Source: Hymenobacter sp. CRA2 (GTDB lineage: Bacteria > Bacteroidota > Bacteroidia > Cytophagales > Hymenobacteraceae). From it: a stretch of 64,000 bases of DNA. Shown one piece after another: positions 2,658-37,253 of the stretch (position 1 is its first letter; each line of letters starts with the position of its first letter). The notes under the pieces were generated by a model. That model was given only the letters and a program-made list of their open reading frames with translations. It ran no database searches and was not told the origin of the DNA. The DNA lies in contig NZ_MVBC01000009.1 in NCBI RefSeq assembly GCF_002007105.1, positions 1 through 64,000 on the forward strand, read 5' to 3'. A program made the position numbers and the translations under genes.

Positions 2658-3821
2658 CTACGGTTTTAAGACCACTTTTGTACAGTTGTCTTTCTTGTTG
2701 CGGAAGATGTCGTAGCCGTGGGCGGCTTCGCTCAGCGGCAGTTTGTGGCTGATGATGTCGTCGAGCTTCACCTTGCCTTCCACTACGTACTGCAGCAGCT
2801 TGTCGATGTGCTTGTGGGCCGGGGCCTGGCCGCCCACGAGCTTGATGCCCTTGTCGAAGAATTGCCCGACGGGGAAGTTGTCGAAGTAAGCTCCGTACAC
2901 GCCCAGAACCGATACGATGCCACCGCGGCGCACAGCACTCATGCAGGTTTCCAGCACTTTCACAGAGCCTTTTTCGAAGTTCACCACGGCCTTGACACGG
3001 TCGATTAGGTCGCGCATGGGCTCGAAGCCCACGGCCTCCACGCACACGTCGGCGCCGCGGCCCTGGCTCATGGCCCGGATTTCCTCAATCACCTGCTTGC
3101 GGTCCTCCCACTTGATGGTTTCGCAGTTGGCCGAAGCCCGCGCTTTCTCCAGGCGGTATTCCAGCGGATCGACGATGACCACGCGGGCGGCGCCGCGCAG
3201 CCAAGCCGATTTGGCGGCCATGATGCCCACCGGCCCGGCCCCGAAAATGGCCACAAACTCACCGCCCTTTACCTCGCCCCAGTCGATGCCGGAGTAACCG
3301 GTGGGGAAGATATCGGTGAGGAACAGGGCCTGCTCGTCGGTCAGCGAATCGGGAATGACGCGCGGGCCGTAGTCGGCGTAGGGCACGCGCACGTACTCGG
3401 CCTGCCCGCCGTTGTAGCCGCCGTAGAGGTCGGTGTAGCCGAAGAGGGCACCGCCTTTTTCCGTCAGCACGCCGCCCTCGGGGCCGTAGTGGTCGGGGTT
3501 GGAGTTTTCGCAGTGGCCGGGCAGCTCGTGGTTGCAGAAGAAACAGGTACCGCAAGCCACCGGAAAGGGCACCACCACCCGGTCGCCCACCTTCAGCTTA
3601 TTGCCCACGCCCTTGCCCACTTCTTCCACGATGCCCATGAACTCGTGGCCGAGCACCATGGGCCGCGGCTGCGGAATGCCGCCGTTGTAGATGTGCAGAT
3701 CGGAGCCGCAGATGGCGGTGCTCGTCACGCGGATAATGGCGTCGCGCGAATCGACGATTTCCGGGTCGTCGACCGTGTCGACGCGCACGTCCTTGATGCC
3801 GTGGAAGACTAAGGCTTTCAT
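2658..3821 (-). CDS. Zinc-dependent alcohol dehydrogenase, formaldehyde-dehydrogenase-like (387 aa)
   Basis: Medium-chain NAD(P)-dependent dehydrogenase. Catalytic zinc ligands are visible in STAICGSDLH and GHEFMG. Four structural-zinc Cys lie in CGTCFFCNHELPGHC, and the Rossmann motif is FGAGPVGIMAA. The long insertion after the structural zinc site and the C-terminus NCTKVVLKP match the glutathione-independent formaldehyde dehydrogenase branch, but the substrate cannot be settled from sequence. I chose the ATG at 3821 (MKALVFHGIKDV) because the 58 extra codons upstream are Arg-rich and unlike the family. The 3' end is intact although the island begins just beyond it. Confidence 0.9.
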   Translation of the reverse strand: MKALVFHGIKDVRVDTVDDPEIVDSRDAIIRVTSTAICGSDLHIYNGGIPQPRPMVLGHEFMGIVEEVGKGVGNKLKVGDRVVVPFPVACGTCFFCNHELPGHCENSNPDHYGPEGGVLTEKGGALFGYTDLYGGYNGGQAEYVRVPYADYGPRVIPDSLTDEQALFLTDIFPTGYSGIDWGEVKGGEFVAIFGAGPVGIMAAKSAWLRGAARVVIVDPLEYRLEKARASANCETIKWEDRKQVIEEIRAMSQGRGADVCVEAVGFEPMRDLIDRVKAVVNFEKGSVKVLETCMSAVRRGGIVSVLGVYGAYFDNFPVGQFFDKGIKLVGGQAPAHKHIDKLLQYVVEGKVKLDDIISHKLPLSEAAHGYDIFRNKKDNCTKVVLKP

Positions 3822-3957
3822 AGGGTGTGGGTTGGTTGTGGTAGATACGTAGCTAGGGCTAACGACCCGCGCAACGCCCGGGTTGTCTCCGTGAACTTTC
3901 CTACCCGAAACCACCCAATACGCAACGCCTGACGCGGCAACTGCCCGCGCTTCCGCC

Positions 3958-33048: not shown

Positions 33049-33801
33049 TCAATGGTCTTGCGTCCGGCGCAGATCCAGGTTGTAGGTCAGGGCCAGGTAC
33101 AGGGTGTGGTGTAGCTCATATACCTGCCCGTCGTCGTGGGCTTTGACGTGGTACATGTACCCCAGCTCAGCGGCCGCGGCTTGGGTAAACTGCCGGCCTA
33201 GCGCGCTGTACAGGCGGTTTTGGTCGAAGGCATGTTGCACGTGGTGGCCGAAACCCAGGAACACCTCGTCGTAAGCCGTCAGGTACCACTCGTGCGCATC
33301 GACGCGCCGGCCCCGCAAGGGCAGCTGCACGCTGAACTGGTAGCGGGCGCGGTTTTCGTACGTGGGGCCAGCTTCACCTTCGCCCCGAATCCAGCGCTGC
33401 TCCAGGCGGTAGCGGTGCCCGAGGGCCAGCCGGCCCAGCGTATCGGTCAGCTGCACTTCCTCGTAGCTGCGGTGCTCCCAGCTATTGCCTTCCGGAAACT
33501 CCCCATAAGGGTAGGTGCGCAGAAAGGTGTAGCCAGCGGCCGTCTGCCACTTGTCAGACCAGTGCTGATTCAGGCCCAGCCGCAGGAGCAGCTGCTGACG
33601 CCGGGGCCCGAGGTCGGCGCGGCGCAACTGACCCTCCGTGTGCACGCCCCAGAAATCGGTCAGGCGGTGGTCGCCGGTGTAGTTGTACCAAGCCTGGAAG
33701 GCGCGGTCGAAGCGGCGCGGCGGGGCGGTTTGGGCCCGCACCATCGGGCCAAGGCCTAACAGCACAAGCAATAACAGGCAACAACGGCAAAGGCAGAGCA
33801 T
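33049..33801 (-). CDS. DUF2490 outer-membrane-like beta protein, paralog 1 (250 aa)
   Basis: Signal peptide ([20 protein letters not shown], cleavage near VRAQ), then alternating amphipathic strands: [51 protein letters not shown] and a terminal [11 protein letters not shown]. This is the DUF2490 pattern, a predicted small outer-membrane barrel of unknown function. A paralog at 57783 shares the segments QLRRxDxGPR, TYPYGxF, [13 protein letters not shown] and NRxRYQ. Confidence 0.85.
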
Positions 33802-33847
33802 ACCGGCTCCTATACGGAGCGAGGTGCGTCGGCGCCCATCTAGCGTC

Positions 33848-33855
33848 TACCTTTG
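33848..33855 (+). promoter_or_regulatory. -7 element abutting the aroC ATG
   Basis: TACCTTTG (TAnnTTTG) ends five bases before the aroC ATG, so transcription would begin at about the ATG. No clear -33 element was found. Confidence 0.5.
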
Positions 33856-33860
33856 CGCGC

Positions 33861-34940
33861 ATGAGCAATTCCTACGGCACCCTGTTTCGCATCAGCACCT
33901 TCGGCGAGTCGCACGGCCCCGGCATCGGCGTAATTATCGATGGCTGCCCGGCCGGCTTGGCCGTGGACGTAGCCGACATTCAGCGGGACCTGGACCGCCG
34001 CCGCCCCGGGCAGTCGGACCTGACCACGCCGCGCGCCGAGGCCGACCAGGTGGAGGTGCTGTCGGGCCTGTTTGAGGGCCGGAGCACGGGCACGCCCATT
34101 GCTCTGCTGATTCGCAACCAGGACCAGCGCAGCCACGATTACTCGCACATTCAGCACGCTTACCGGCCGTCCCACGCCGATTATACCTACGACCAGAAAT
34201 ACGGCCACCGCGACTACCGCGGCGGAGGCCGCAGCTCGGCCCGTGAAACGGCCGCGCGCGTGGCGGCCGGCGCCGTGGCCATGCAGTTTTTGCAGCAGCA
34301 AGGCATCACGGTGCAGAGCTACGTGTCGCAGGTGGGCGCAGTGGCCGTGCCCGTAGGCTACGAGCAGCTAGATCTGTCCCTCATCGATACCAACCCGGTG
34401 CGCTGCCCCCACCCCGACACCGCCGAGCGCATGGCCGAGCTGATTCGCCAGACCCGGGACCGACACGACACCGTGGGTGGCCTGGTAACGGGCGTGGTGC
34501 GGGGCGTACCGGCGGGCCTGGGCGAACCGGTGTTCGACAAGCTGCACGCCGAGCTGGGCAAGGCCATGCTGAGCATCAACGCCGTGAAGGGCTTCGAATA
34601 CGGCTCGGGCTTCGCCGGCACGCTGCTGTTTGGCTCGGAGCACAACGACCAGTTTTACACGGATGAAGCCGGGCAGGTGCGTACGCGTACCAACCACAGC
34701 GGCGGCATTCAGGGCGGCATCAGCAACGGGCAGGATATCTACTTCCGCGTGGCCTTCAAGCCGGTGGCCACTATCCTGCAGCCCCAACAGACCATCGACG
34801 ACCAGGGCCAGAGCGTCGAGCTGGCCGGCCGCGGCCGCCACGACCCGTGCGTACTGCCCCGCGCCGTGCCCATCGTGGATGCCATGACCGCGCTGGTGCT
34901 GGCTGATATGCTGTTGCGGGCGCGCACGAGCCGGGTGTAG
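33861..34940 (+). CDS. aroC: Chorismate synthase (359 aa)
   Basis: Converts EPSP to chorismate with reduced FMN, last common step of aromatic amino-acid synthesis. Signature motifs are [60 protein letters not shown] followed by [13 protein letters not shown], and [11 protein letters not shown], with [18 protein letters not shown] near the end. Full length. It diverges from the DUF2490 gene and is followed by a repeat-filled intergenic region. Confidence 0.97.
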
Positions 34941-34990
34941 CGCCGACCTATCAGGCTGGAGGCAAGCTAAGTACTCGTGCAATAGTGTCT

Positions 34991-35087
34991 GAACGTCATG
35001 CTGAGCGAAGCCGAAGCATCTCTACCGCTTCGTTGCGCCTCACGTTGCGCCTCACCCCCCGGCCCCCTCTCCGAAGAGGAGAGGGGG
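34991..35087. repeat. Composite intergenic repeat downstream of aroC
   Basis: Contains CATGCTGAGCGAAGCCGAAG (34998-35017), a 12-base direct repeat GTTGCGCCTCAC (35032 and 35044), and a hairpin CCCCCTCTCC/GGAGAGGGGG (35063-35087) that may terminate aroC. There is no ORF. Such sequences recur between genes in GC-rich Bacteroidota (recollection). Confidence 0.6.
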
Positions 35088-35139
35088 AACCGGACGAAGC
35101 ACGATGCCTAATGGGCTACGCTTAATGCTAACGGCCCTG

Positions 35140-35391
35140 TAAACTAGGCCGCAAAGCAAGTAAACCGGACCGATCAGGAACCTTATCGGACCGATATAAG
35201 ACCATTTCGGACCGGATATGTGGTAAGCTGGACCGCTCGGGTGGTAAGAGGGGTCGGCTACGTACCAAGCCAGGTCGAATAGTTAGCAAACTGGACCGTA
35301 ATCGGACTAAGCTGAACCGGCCGGATGCTAAGCTGGGTCGGCCAAGCGCTAAGCCGGACCGGCAGACGGCTAACCGAAGTCGGTTTGGGAG
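35140..35391. repeat. 12 x 21-bp degenerate tandem array with an open heptad frame on the minus strand
   Basis: Twelve consecutive units of exactly 21 bases, no indels. On the plus strand the first 12 bases of each unit follow TAAGCTGGACCG and the last nine vary. Read on the minus strand the array is open (frame 35427 to 35128, 99 aa) and gives heptads xxxR(P/S)(S/G)L, for example ALGRPSL, ASGRFSL, VRLRSSL, LTIRPGL. Arg uses CGG and CGA, and Leu uses TTA and TTG, so some variation is synonymous. No start signal or family is recognised; coding status is uncertain. It occupies most of the 528-base aroC/wHTH gap. Confidence 0.85.
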
Positions 35392-35468
35392 TACACCGGG
35401 GAGGCGGCCCATTGTGCAAGCAGGCAAAAGCGCTTAAGTTGACGCTTAATCCTATTCTTATCCTGCTG

Positions 35469-35882
35469 ATGCTTCCTGAATCTGCTCCCGCTTCTCTGGT
35501 CGAGCGTTTTGCCGAGCGCGTAATCCGGCGCGACCAGCCCCCACAACCCGACCCGCAACGCTTCGAGCCACCTCAGGTAGCCGCCCGTGTGGGCCGCCAC
35601 CTACGCGCCCGCCTGGCCTTGCCCACTGACCACCAGCTCCCGGTGCTGGTAGCCGTGTGCCTGGCTCTGATGGAGCAGCCGGCCTGTGCCACCTCGGCCC
35701 TTGCGCAGGCGGCAGGCGTGCGGCGCCCCGCCGCCAACCGCGCCGCCATGCGCCTGCAGCGCGCCGGTCTCACCGATGATTACTGGGAGGGCCACTACCA
35801 TTATTACCAGCTCACCCGCACCGGCGAGGACTGGCTGCTGGCCGTGGTGCAGGACACGCTGCCGGAGCCAGCGCCGCGCTAG
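35469..35882 (+). CDS. Winged-helix-like DNA-binding protein (137 aa)
   Basis: The second half reads as a winged helix: LVAVCLALMEQPACATSALA, QAAGVRRPAANRAAMRLQRA as recognition helix, and GHYHYYQLTRTGEDWL as wing, a MarR/PadR-like layout. The N-terminal 45 residues are Pro/Arg-rich and probably a linker. No ligand domain. It follows the 21-bp repeat array and converges with the HTTM gene (3-base gap). Target unknown. Confidence 0.65.
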   Translation: MLPESAPASLVERFAERVIRRDQPPQPDPQRFEPPQVAARVGRHLRARLALPTDHQLPVLVAVCLALMEQPACATSALAQAAGVRRPAANRAAMRLQRAGLTDDYWEGHYHYYQLTRTGEDWLLAVVQDTLPEPAPR

Positions 35883-35885
35883 CCC

Positions 35886-37253
35886 CTACCGCACCGGCCC
35901 GGGCAGTACCCAGGCGTAGTGGCCCCAGCCGCGCCGCTGCGCGAGCAGGTTCAGCTCGGGGCTAACCAAGGGCTGCGGTGGGTGGCCGTTCAGGCTGACC
36001 TGGGAGTCGCAGTAAACGGCTACGGGCTGCAGGCCGCGCCGCCGGTAGTCCTGGGCCAGTAGTTGGGCAAACTGCAGGAGCATGTCCGGGTTGTCGGTGA
36101 GCTTGCGCAGCTGGTTGTGGGTGAGGTAGTCCTCGGGCAGCACTACTTCCTCGCGGCCATTGGGCAGGCGCACGCGGAAACGGGCCGTGCCGTCCTTGGT
36201 GCGCAGCATCAAGTGCCAGCTGAAGCGGTGGCCTTCCTCGGTCCAGTGCGCGTCGGCCGGGTACAGGAAGTGGCGCAACGGAATCAGTACCTGCAGCAAC
36301 ACAAATACGCCCAGGCCGATAAGCACCCAGCGCTGGGCCGGTGTATCGGCCGGTTCCGGTGCGGGAGCCTCGGCTGGTGCCTGGGTGGCGGGAGCTGGCA
36401 CACGCGTGCGAAACCAACGACCAACGAAGCCGGGCAGGCGGCGCGGGAAATCGGGGGCGAAGAACAGGCTGGTGAGCAGCAAGGCCGCCCATGGGAAGGT
36501 GCCCAAGCCGAATATCACCACGTTGGTGAGGTGAAACAGGGCAGCCCAGGCAAAGCCCCAGACCCTGGTGCGGCGCCACAGCAGCAGCGGCACCACCAGC
36601 GCGTCGAACAGGATGCCGCCGTAGCTCATGAGCCAGGCGGTGCTGGGTTGCGTCAGCAGCGGCCCCAGCACGGGGTAGTGCGCCTTGGCCGACAGCCACA
36701 CCGTCAGGGGCCGGGCGGCCAGCCAGTCGGGGTTGAGCTTGGCCAGGGCGGCAAAGACGTACACCAGCCCGATCTGGAACAGCAGCACGGCGCGCGTCCA
36801 GGCCGGCACCGTGGCGGCGGGCGCCACCCGGCCAGCGCGCACATCGGCAGAGGCGGCGCGGTGGGCCGGCAGCACCGCCAGCACCGCCGCTACCAAGGCG
36901 TAGAGGTAGAAGTGGTTGATGTACTCGGTTTCTTCCAGCAGCAGCAGGGCCACGTAGCCGAGGCTGAGTACGGCGGCGGCCCAGCGGTAGCGCCAGCCCG
37001 CCGCTACCGCAATGCCCGCCGCGACAATGGCGGCGTAGATGATGTAGATAACCGTAGGCGGCGGGTGCGGCAGCCACTCCCAGCCCACGTAGCGCAGGTG
37101 AAAGCGCGGCTCGGTGTAGTTGCGCACACGCCCCCACACGAAAGCGCCGCCGTGCTCCAGCGCCAGCAAAAACCCGGCACCCAGCCGCAAATACACCAGC
37201 CAGGCAATATCAACCGGCCGAAACAACGCACGAACAAGGCGAACAGGCAGCAT
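35886..37253 (-). CDS. HTTM / vitamin-K-dependent gamma-carboxylase-like membrane protein (455 aa)
   Basis: Multi-pass membrane protein. The N-terminus VDIAWLVYLRLGAGFLLALE and the following EPRFHLRYVGWEWLPHPPP are the HTTM signature. LLFQIGLVYVFAALAKLNPD and a later HLTNVVIFGLGTFPWA complete the membrane domain. Residues 320-455 form a soluble C-terminal region (RFSWHLMLRTKDGTARFRVR). Bacterial HTTM proteins are related to gamma-glutamyl carboxylase, but their reaction is mostly unknown. Convergent with the wHTH gene, divergent from nfu. Confidence 0.88.
   Translation of the reverse strand: MLPVRLVRALFRPVDIAWLVYLRLGAGFLLALEHGGAFVWGRVRNYTEPRFHLRYVGWEWLPHPPPTVIYIIYAAIVAAGIAVAAGWRYRWAAAVLSLGYVALLLLEETEYINHFYLYALVAAVLAVLPAHRAASADVRAGRVAPAATVPAWTRAVLLFQIGLVYVFAALAKLNPDWLAARPLTVWLSAKAHYPVLGPLLTQPSTAWLMSYGGILFDALVVPLLLWRRTRVWGFAWAALFHLTNVVIFGLGTFPWAALLLTSLFFAPDFPRRLPGFVGRWFRTRVPAPATQAPAEAPAPEPADTPAQRWVLIGLGVFVLLQVLIPLRHFLYPADAHWTEEGHRFSWHLMLRTKDGTARFRVRLPNGREEVVLPEDYLTHNQLRKLTDNPDMLLQFAQLLAQDYRRRGLQPVAVYCDSQVSLNGHPPQPLVSPELNLLAQRRGWGHYAWVLPGPVR

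Follow-up and report, generated by a model that had tools for sequence, protein, structure and literature searches.

Introduction

What is one to make of a stretch of bacterial DNA that reads like the gene of a repeat protein, yet sits directly upstream of another small gene? I take up this question for a 64-kb stretch of a Hymenobacter genome (64,000 nucleotides, hereafter the window), in which positions 35140-35391 of the plus strand are filled by a twelve-unit array of 21-bp repeats, here proposed to be a row of phased, putative binding sites. An earlier note on this DNA had counted twelve units of exactly 21 bases, and the count holds, since all 12 units stand head to tail over 35140-35391 with no gap or indel, share a plus-strand consensus of about TAAGCTGGACCG followed by 9 variable bases, and carry CG at unit positions 11-12 in every case (12/12). 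Eleven of the 21 columns are conserved, and the unit is borderline palindromic (p 0.055). Shifted by 21 bases against itself, the array gives a self-match of 0.537 over 231 bp, which is the highest in the 64-kb window when all periods from 10 to 69 are compared, the runner-up place at period 21 reaching 0.468; TRF did not report the array because its units are too diverged. A DNA search did not find the array a second time in its genome, the array used as a query against seven genus mates returned short weak matches only (17-34 bases), and Rfam, run over 33800-36000, gave two weak matches that were far under their gathering scores and both outside the array. Just upstream, at about 34988-35112, lies a stretch of dispersed repeats with a hairpin (CCCCCTCTCC/GGAGAGGGGG) and an element of the form CATGCTGAGC...GAAGCATCTC, parts of which were matched 57 more times in the same genome; these repeats seem unrelated to the array.

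A gene-like repeat that is not a gene

The earlier note had suggested that the minus strand of the array might encode a heptad or solenoid-like peptide, with helical phasing of the DNA as its alternative. Several of the observations behind that reading stand: the minus strand does hold an ORF of 99 amino acids that covers the array (35128-35427, in the heptad frame), the units do follow the pattern R-(P/S)-(S/G)-L in that frame (R in 12/12 units, P/S in 10/12, S/G in 8/12 and L in 10/12), and TAA does start most plus-strand units (8/12). The statement that only the minus strand is open must be withdrawn, as one plus-strand frame is also stop-free across the array, with a pN/pS of 0.68. The heptad frame itself is without a coding signature, its GC content by codon position being 0.58/0.57/0.52, and the third-position value of 0.52 compares with 0.78-0.87 in six genes of the window. 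The comparison of synonymous with non-synonymous change that had been suggested as a check lends no support to coding, since pN/pS among the units is 0.76 and the value after shuffling bases within columns is 0.75 (sd 0.02; 31 of the 300 shuffles were stop-free and hence scorable). Stops and frame-breaking steps, which the note had named among the evidence that would speak against its coding reading, are both present in the arrays of relatives introduced below: 26 of 55 are closed in all six frames, and three have periods of 41 or 43 bp, strongly in L106 and near the score limit in L067 and L103. Neither an open frame kept across relatives nor a codon-position bias, by which protein-coding tandem repeats are recognised, is found here. 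The array is not a protein gene, and the 99-aa ORF is spurious.

The neighbouring winged-helix gene and its family

The aroC loci of the seven genus mates hold no 21-bp array, and attention therefore turned to the small ORF beside it, which the earlier note had not linked to the repeat. Other irregularities were met at aroC along the way: an 8-bp-step repeat (TGAAATGG/TGAGATGG) with an inverted copy beside the gene in genome G028 (L038, about 2590-2790), repeats in multiples of 7 bp (14, 21, 35 and 49) near it in G023 (L058, about 3600-3830), a genome in which the family gene was not found, and in G015 (C3, 3968134-3969206) an aroC matched as two pieces that overlap and contain a TGA; either the chorismate synthase gene is broken there or the sequencing is at fault.

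The ORF called mechanically at 35325-35882 begins within the array, and the start shared by the family lies at about 35469, giving a plus-strand gene at 35469-35882 for a protein of 137 amino acids. The array thus ends 77 bp upstream of its gene, and the gap between array and start codon (35392-35468) is presumably a leader and perhaps a promoter. AlphaFold2 predicts a winged helix that carries additional helices at its N-terminus (pLDDT 88.9); in this model residues 86-98 are the predicted recognition helix, and the N-terminal helices could serve oligomerisation. The best fold matches are MarR proteins (VIA-align Z 10.8, rmsd 2.9 over 79 residues to 3e6m), Foldseek points to the same MarR-type winged helix, a common fold (probability 1.00, E 4.6e-4 to 2rdp), and the matches to the DNA-binding proteins AspA (Z 10.0, rmsd 2.8 over 78 residues) and TubR (Z 9.3, rmsd 3.2 over 83 residues) are no better than those to many MarR proteins; nothing is concluded here from families absent from the fold searches. 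A sequence profile reaches ArsR-type chains (E 1.2e-7). The window protein scores under the cut-offs of Pfam MarR_2 (17.1 bits vs 27) and of the ArsR/SmtB family NF033788 of NCBIfam (17.9 bits vs 55), all ten relatives scanned fall under the cut-offs of Pfam MarR and MarR_2, and 15 of 44 family members match NF033788 at E values up to 0.01. PHROGs, NCBIfam and PADLOC give weak HTH-type matches only; Pfam finds no replication initiator domain in the window protein or the ten relatives scanned, and a weak PHROG match named replication initiation occurs in 1 of 44 members (E 0.0034). The gene is under purifying selection, dN/dS ranging from 0.04 to 0.71 in the pairs listed.

Searched through 58 genomes with the small ORF (35472-35882) as the query, the family appeared at five other places, each with a 21- or 42-bp periodic array alongside and each with that array upstream on the gene's strand (5/5). 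With up to 20 candidates scored per genome, the family gene is present in at least 30 of 204 genomes of the bacterial family, with at least 66 matches including that of the window and at least seven members in the single genome G063, and its members are confined, in these 204 genomes, to two of six genera, Hymenobacter and its close kin. An order-wide profile search of 390 genomes brought up no full-length member outside these two genera among the candidates scored, at most 10 per genome, the matches there being weak and limited to 51-61 residues of the HTH part. In a second genome collection 18 of 19 loci are Hymenobacter records, the 19th being an Evansella match over 24 residues only; Hymenobacter carriers include H. 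jeollabukensis, H. edaphi, H. ruricola, H. gummosus, H. terrenus, H. psychrotolerans, H. negativus, H. terricola and H. frigidus. Plasmids and phages, searched with the window protein alone, gave no match, three pattern matches in viral contigs were not confirmed, and the contig of the window, 264 kb long, holds aroC, a chromosomal kind of gene. The iterons of a replication origin would be expected beside an initiator gene and on a separate replicon. Three members are broken, L092 (G081), L121 (G099) and L125 (G168); the latter two retain the 21-bp periodicity and L092 is without an array.

Two helical turns, kept across the family

The spacing of the units is what this gene family holds nearly constant. 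In a column-information test, with periods 18 and 24 serving as the codon-linked comparison, period 21 is ahead of both in 62 of 63 upstream regions, and the sole failure is the broken gene L092, while L087 and L088 pass narrowly. (The upstream tests cover 63 of the 66 members, L111, L091 and L120 having too little upstream DNA.) The same type of test downstream, where codons provide the background, puts period 21 first in 28 of 66 regions, and a period-21 margin above 0.55, a limit picked after the values were known, separates 58 of 63 upstream regions from 0 of 66 downstream ones. By a gapless score of at least 18 at period 21 or 42, the pattern is found in 52 of 63 upstream regions, in 3 of 63 downstream regions and in none of 315 shuffled sequences. 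By eye, rows in 21-bp steps with short cores only can be made out in seven arrays drawn from the low scorers and their kin, and a late-found member from H. gummosus (L159) has a weak pattern that is best at 41 bp. Of 419 intervals between called sites, 294 measure 21 bp and 88 measure 42 bp, counts that lean towards the period because site calling was seeded on it.

For the counts of intervals, period class, frame, GC and length, the 11 of 66 arrays scoring below 18 were left out (n=55). The remaining arrays are between 4 and 15 steps of 21 bp long, with a median of 10.5, and end 7-193 bp before the ATG (median 61). They are poor in GC: their mean is 0.45, compared with 0.73 in the genes and 0.62 in the DNA upstream of them, and in 51 of 55 cases the array has a lower GC content than that upstream DNA. 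Palindromic units are rare (4 of 51 arrays at p<0.05), and the median number of conserved columns is 12 of 21 in the 25 arrays of the 21-bp class. On a protein tree of 63 of the 66 members (L092, L120 and L125 excepted), with 55 arrays classed, three changes suffice to explain period class, a number given without a shuffle control. Helical phasing at two turns per unit, the alternative of the earlier note, is supported by this 21/42-bp spacing, which persists across a gene family with otherwise unrelated unit sequences.

Motifs that turn over with the protein

If the spacing is held, what happens to the motif? Tests of motif against protein used 54 of the 66 members. Proteins more than 70% identical have motifs that resemble each other when read in the same orientation to the gene (likeness 0.56, against 0.31 for the reverse complement), and below 40% identity the likeness has gone (0.22 same strand vs 0.23 reverse complement). 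Motif similarity follows protein identity with a rho of 0.33 on the same strand and 0.13 in reverse, each reached in 0 of 1000 permutations, although part of this covariation is shared descent, and relabelling leaves some phylogeny in place. Among pairs 45-90% identical, limits that were fixed after the all-pairs test, residues 86-98 predict motif similarity beyond the remaining protein (partial r 0.24, 0/400 permutations), and a scan of the same pairs with 9-residue windows is best at 90-98 (0.31, 1/400). When all pairs are taken the recognition helix has no advantage over the N-terminus (0.325 vs 0.323) and the top windows lie at the C-terminus; nor does any single position of the recognition helix stand out, the highest value (0.20, residues 91 and 95) falling under the 95% permutation limit of 0.28.

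Individual loci show both retention and change. The orthologs L083, L095 and L104 keep their motif, TTAGCCAG, and L083 and L096, which occupy one chromosomal place and encode proteins 70% identical, have changed it (motif similarity 0.29). Four ortholog pairs of arrays were aligned: L119 and L122 align without a gap, with cores and spacing kept and spacers diverged, and L065 and L085 can be aligned only with gaps (9-18 bp) in the part of the array nearest the gene. L119 and L122 also share an inverted core copy, TTTGTATCGT, just downstream of their arrays and ahead of the start codon, and it may mark the end of an assembly.

A module probably gained and lost at fixed places

In the window the neighbours of array and gene are aroC and a convergent HTTM gene, and in genome G006 the corresponding site is empty, its aligned aroC and HTTM parts lying 22 bp apart; the missing stretch (34935-35891, no strand assigned) contains the array, the gene and the dispersed repeat. 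Across the family, members occupy seven recurrent chromosomal sites and a number of singletons, with no more than one member per site per genome. Ten flank proteins, taken from 1.5-kb flanks in six of the seven site groups (L084 left out), were compared with Pfam, and the seven that matched are PIG-L, S8 peptidase, S51 peptidase, FUSC-like, AIR synthase, NAPRTase and WG repeat proteins; no partition NTPase is among these matched flanks, the other three being without a match.

The PIG-L site lets presence and absence be compared directly. Of the best 30 loci from 201 genomes with PIG-L, a choice that leans to the kin of G127, 9 have both gene and array and 21 have neither. These 21 gene-less loci score 8-20 for 21-bp periodicity, and the top three (18.4-19.6) lie inside the S8 coding part, an S8 gene being found within 1.5 kb downstream in 19 of the 21.

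Two further observations concern the traffic at such sites. In G147, contig C117 carries about sixteen 21-bp units with TTAGCC-type cores (L179, about 1469-1804) where no family gene was found, perhaps through loss of the gene, or perhaps because the array is served in trans by the L070 protein. In L101 (G114) and in L070/L081 (G147/G102), members of one protein clade occupy the chromosomal place usually held by a different clade, a hint that modules may have moved from site to site or replaced one another.

What the array may do

The explanation that I consider probable is that the array is a private, helically phased, cis-acting element, putatively bound head-to-tail by the protein of the neighbouring gene, which would be autoregulatory and perhaps centromere-like. 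The array would consist of twelve directional sites of about 12 bases each, exactly two helical turns apart, and with this spacing all sites would lie on the same face of the DNA. The product of the gene 77 bp downstream would bind these sites through its recognition helix, and sites that are mostly directional and two turns apart suggest binding head-to-tail on one face, with the winged-helix protein assembling along the array. Such an assembly would control transcription of the gene itself, as the array lies where the promoter must be close; with ATG gaps of 7-193 bp, several members should have their promoter in or above the array. The Bacteroidetes promoter motif has its elements at -33 and -7, and upstream of 55 members it was no more frequent than in shuffled sequence, which gives autoregulation no direct support. 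With its sites filled, the array would form a compact complex of protein and DNA, perhaps with some additional function at the locus, and array and gene together would make up one compact module that comes and goes as a whole at certain intergenic chromosomal sites in Hymenobacter.

Would such a protein act elsewhere in its genome? An excess of motifs outside arrays would fit wider targets, and in the window genome there is none, TAAGCNGGACCG with at most one mismatch being matched 104 times and the reversed control 207 times. For TTAATTAGCCAG, in six genomes chosen as carriers of that motif type, the matches outside arrays and in the control are 10/6 in G127, 7/10 in G121, 9/10 in G097, 5/6 in G147, 17/11 in G099 and 29/4 in G102, which is a slight to clear excess in 3 of the 6 and sums to 77 vs 47, with G102 supplying most of the excess. 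The 29 matches in G102 (at most one mismatch; 4 for the reversed pattern) are scattered, none of them in an array, and are possible dispersed sites.

Of the other explanations, the one that survives best is that this is a partition or centromere-like system in which the protein forms a coat on the array and the resulting complex serves to anchor or segregate DNA; it overlaps with the preferred explanation in mechanism and differs in purpose. Its layout would be that of AspA (PMC5120986) and TubR (PMC9178275), as far as the available portions of those papers describe it, both proteins are among the fold matches, though not above MarR, and the lack of a site excess outside the array in the window genome is in its favour as well. 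I nevertheless hold it to be rather unlikely, given that aroC and a convergent HTTM gene flank the module in the window, that seven of the ten flank proteins have non-partition Pfam matches (three having none), and that the family is chromosomal and patchy, in at least 30 of 204 genomes, with no plasmid or phage match for the window protein and no confirmed match in viral contigs. Since no partner NTPase is among the identified flanks, the family is not filed here under partition systems.

It is also quite improbable that the array serves some other factor as its target (RNA polymerase, a nucleoid protein or a different regulator), with the protein merely co-inherited. The gene-less array at G147 C117 would suit this idea, and the covariation of motif and protein could be a matter of descent alone, with the helix signal appearing only within an identity range; against it, dozens of unrelated motifs, seven of them in G063, are unlikely to be readable by a common factor, the signal does fall in the recognition helix, and period class follows protein clade. 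That the array is a neutral satellite, born of tandem duplication and drifting without function, would account for the fast turnover of units with a period that duplication can keep, but is very hard to believe when the L119/L122 arrays remain gap-free through diverged spacers with their cores persisting, when period 21 leads in 62 of 63 members despite unrelated array sequences, and when the array is missing together with its gene at one site. The minus-strand heptad-repeat or solenoid peptide, for all its 99-aa ORF and its arginine in every unit, is scarcely credible beside a third-position GC far under that of the window genes, a pN/pS equal to that of shuffled columns, a second open frame on the plus strand, and family arrays that are closed in six frames or step by 41 or 43 bp.

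Returning to the proposed phased and privately bound array, one can go further and propose, tentatively and with more doubt than conviction, that these modules form an undescribed class of solitary chromosomal nucleoprotein loci, in which each protein coats only its own phased array, with up to seven orthogonal pairs per genome at fixed places, possibly as single-protein centromeres or nucleoid anchors. If specificity shifts fast and in concert on both sides and the spacing is held, a genome could carry up to seven such pairs at once. The family in any case offers dozens of naturally varied protein-site pairs of one architecture for studying how winged-helix specificity evolves, it could show why two helical turns persist when nearly all else changes, and whether one bacterium keeps several nucleoprotein arrays that are orthogonal to each other. 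A gene-like repeat that could be annotated as a gene finds its explanation here as well.

Comparison with known systems

A literature search for such arrays, or for Hymenobacter repeats, brought up no description in the portions of the literature available to it, and the nearest relatives have to be sought among systems that share parts of the design. Ordinary MarR and ArsR operators are one or a few palindromes; the likeness to these regulators is one of fold (MarR Z up to 10.8) and of ArsR-type profile reach, with the Pfam and NF033788 cut-offs not reached. In type III plasmid partition, repeats in a row upstream of tubR make up the tubC centromere, and the modules described here differ from it in that no TubZ-like gene is seen nearby, in being chromosomal and in their 21/42-bp spacing. 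The sopC centromere is bound by a ParB-type protein and, unlike the arrays of this family, sits downstream of sopAB, with an ATPase partner. Within what the available text of one source covers, TubR is a winged-helix protein that binds tubC and forms a superhelix, and sopC of the F plasmid consists of twelve 43-bp tandem repeats, a length close to the 42/43-bp class of the family arrays (PMC9178275).

AspA of the Sulfolobus plasmid pNOB8 comes near in another way, being likewise a small winged-helix protein with its site upstream of its own gene, where it coats more than 200 bp; in the part of the paper available it starts from one 23-bp palindrome and then spreads, whereas the arrays here have 4-15 mostly directional steps of 21 bp, and aspA overlaps parB, which overlaps parA, whereas no such partner is seen here (PMC5120986). 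RdfS, BldC, lambda Xis and Cox show that winged-helix proteins can assemble along DNA as head-to-tail filaments; RdfS does so without a consensus motif, and for none of the four does the available portion of the paper describe a private row of about a dozen evenly spaced sites (PMC11963761). A winged-helix protein with an array of sites by its own gene is of a known kind, and what looks new, measured against these partial sources, is that private, fast-changing and exactly phased arrays recur throughout a multi-site chromosomal family.
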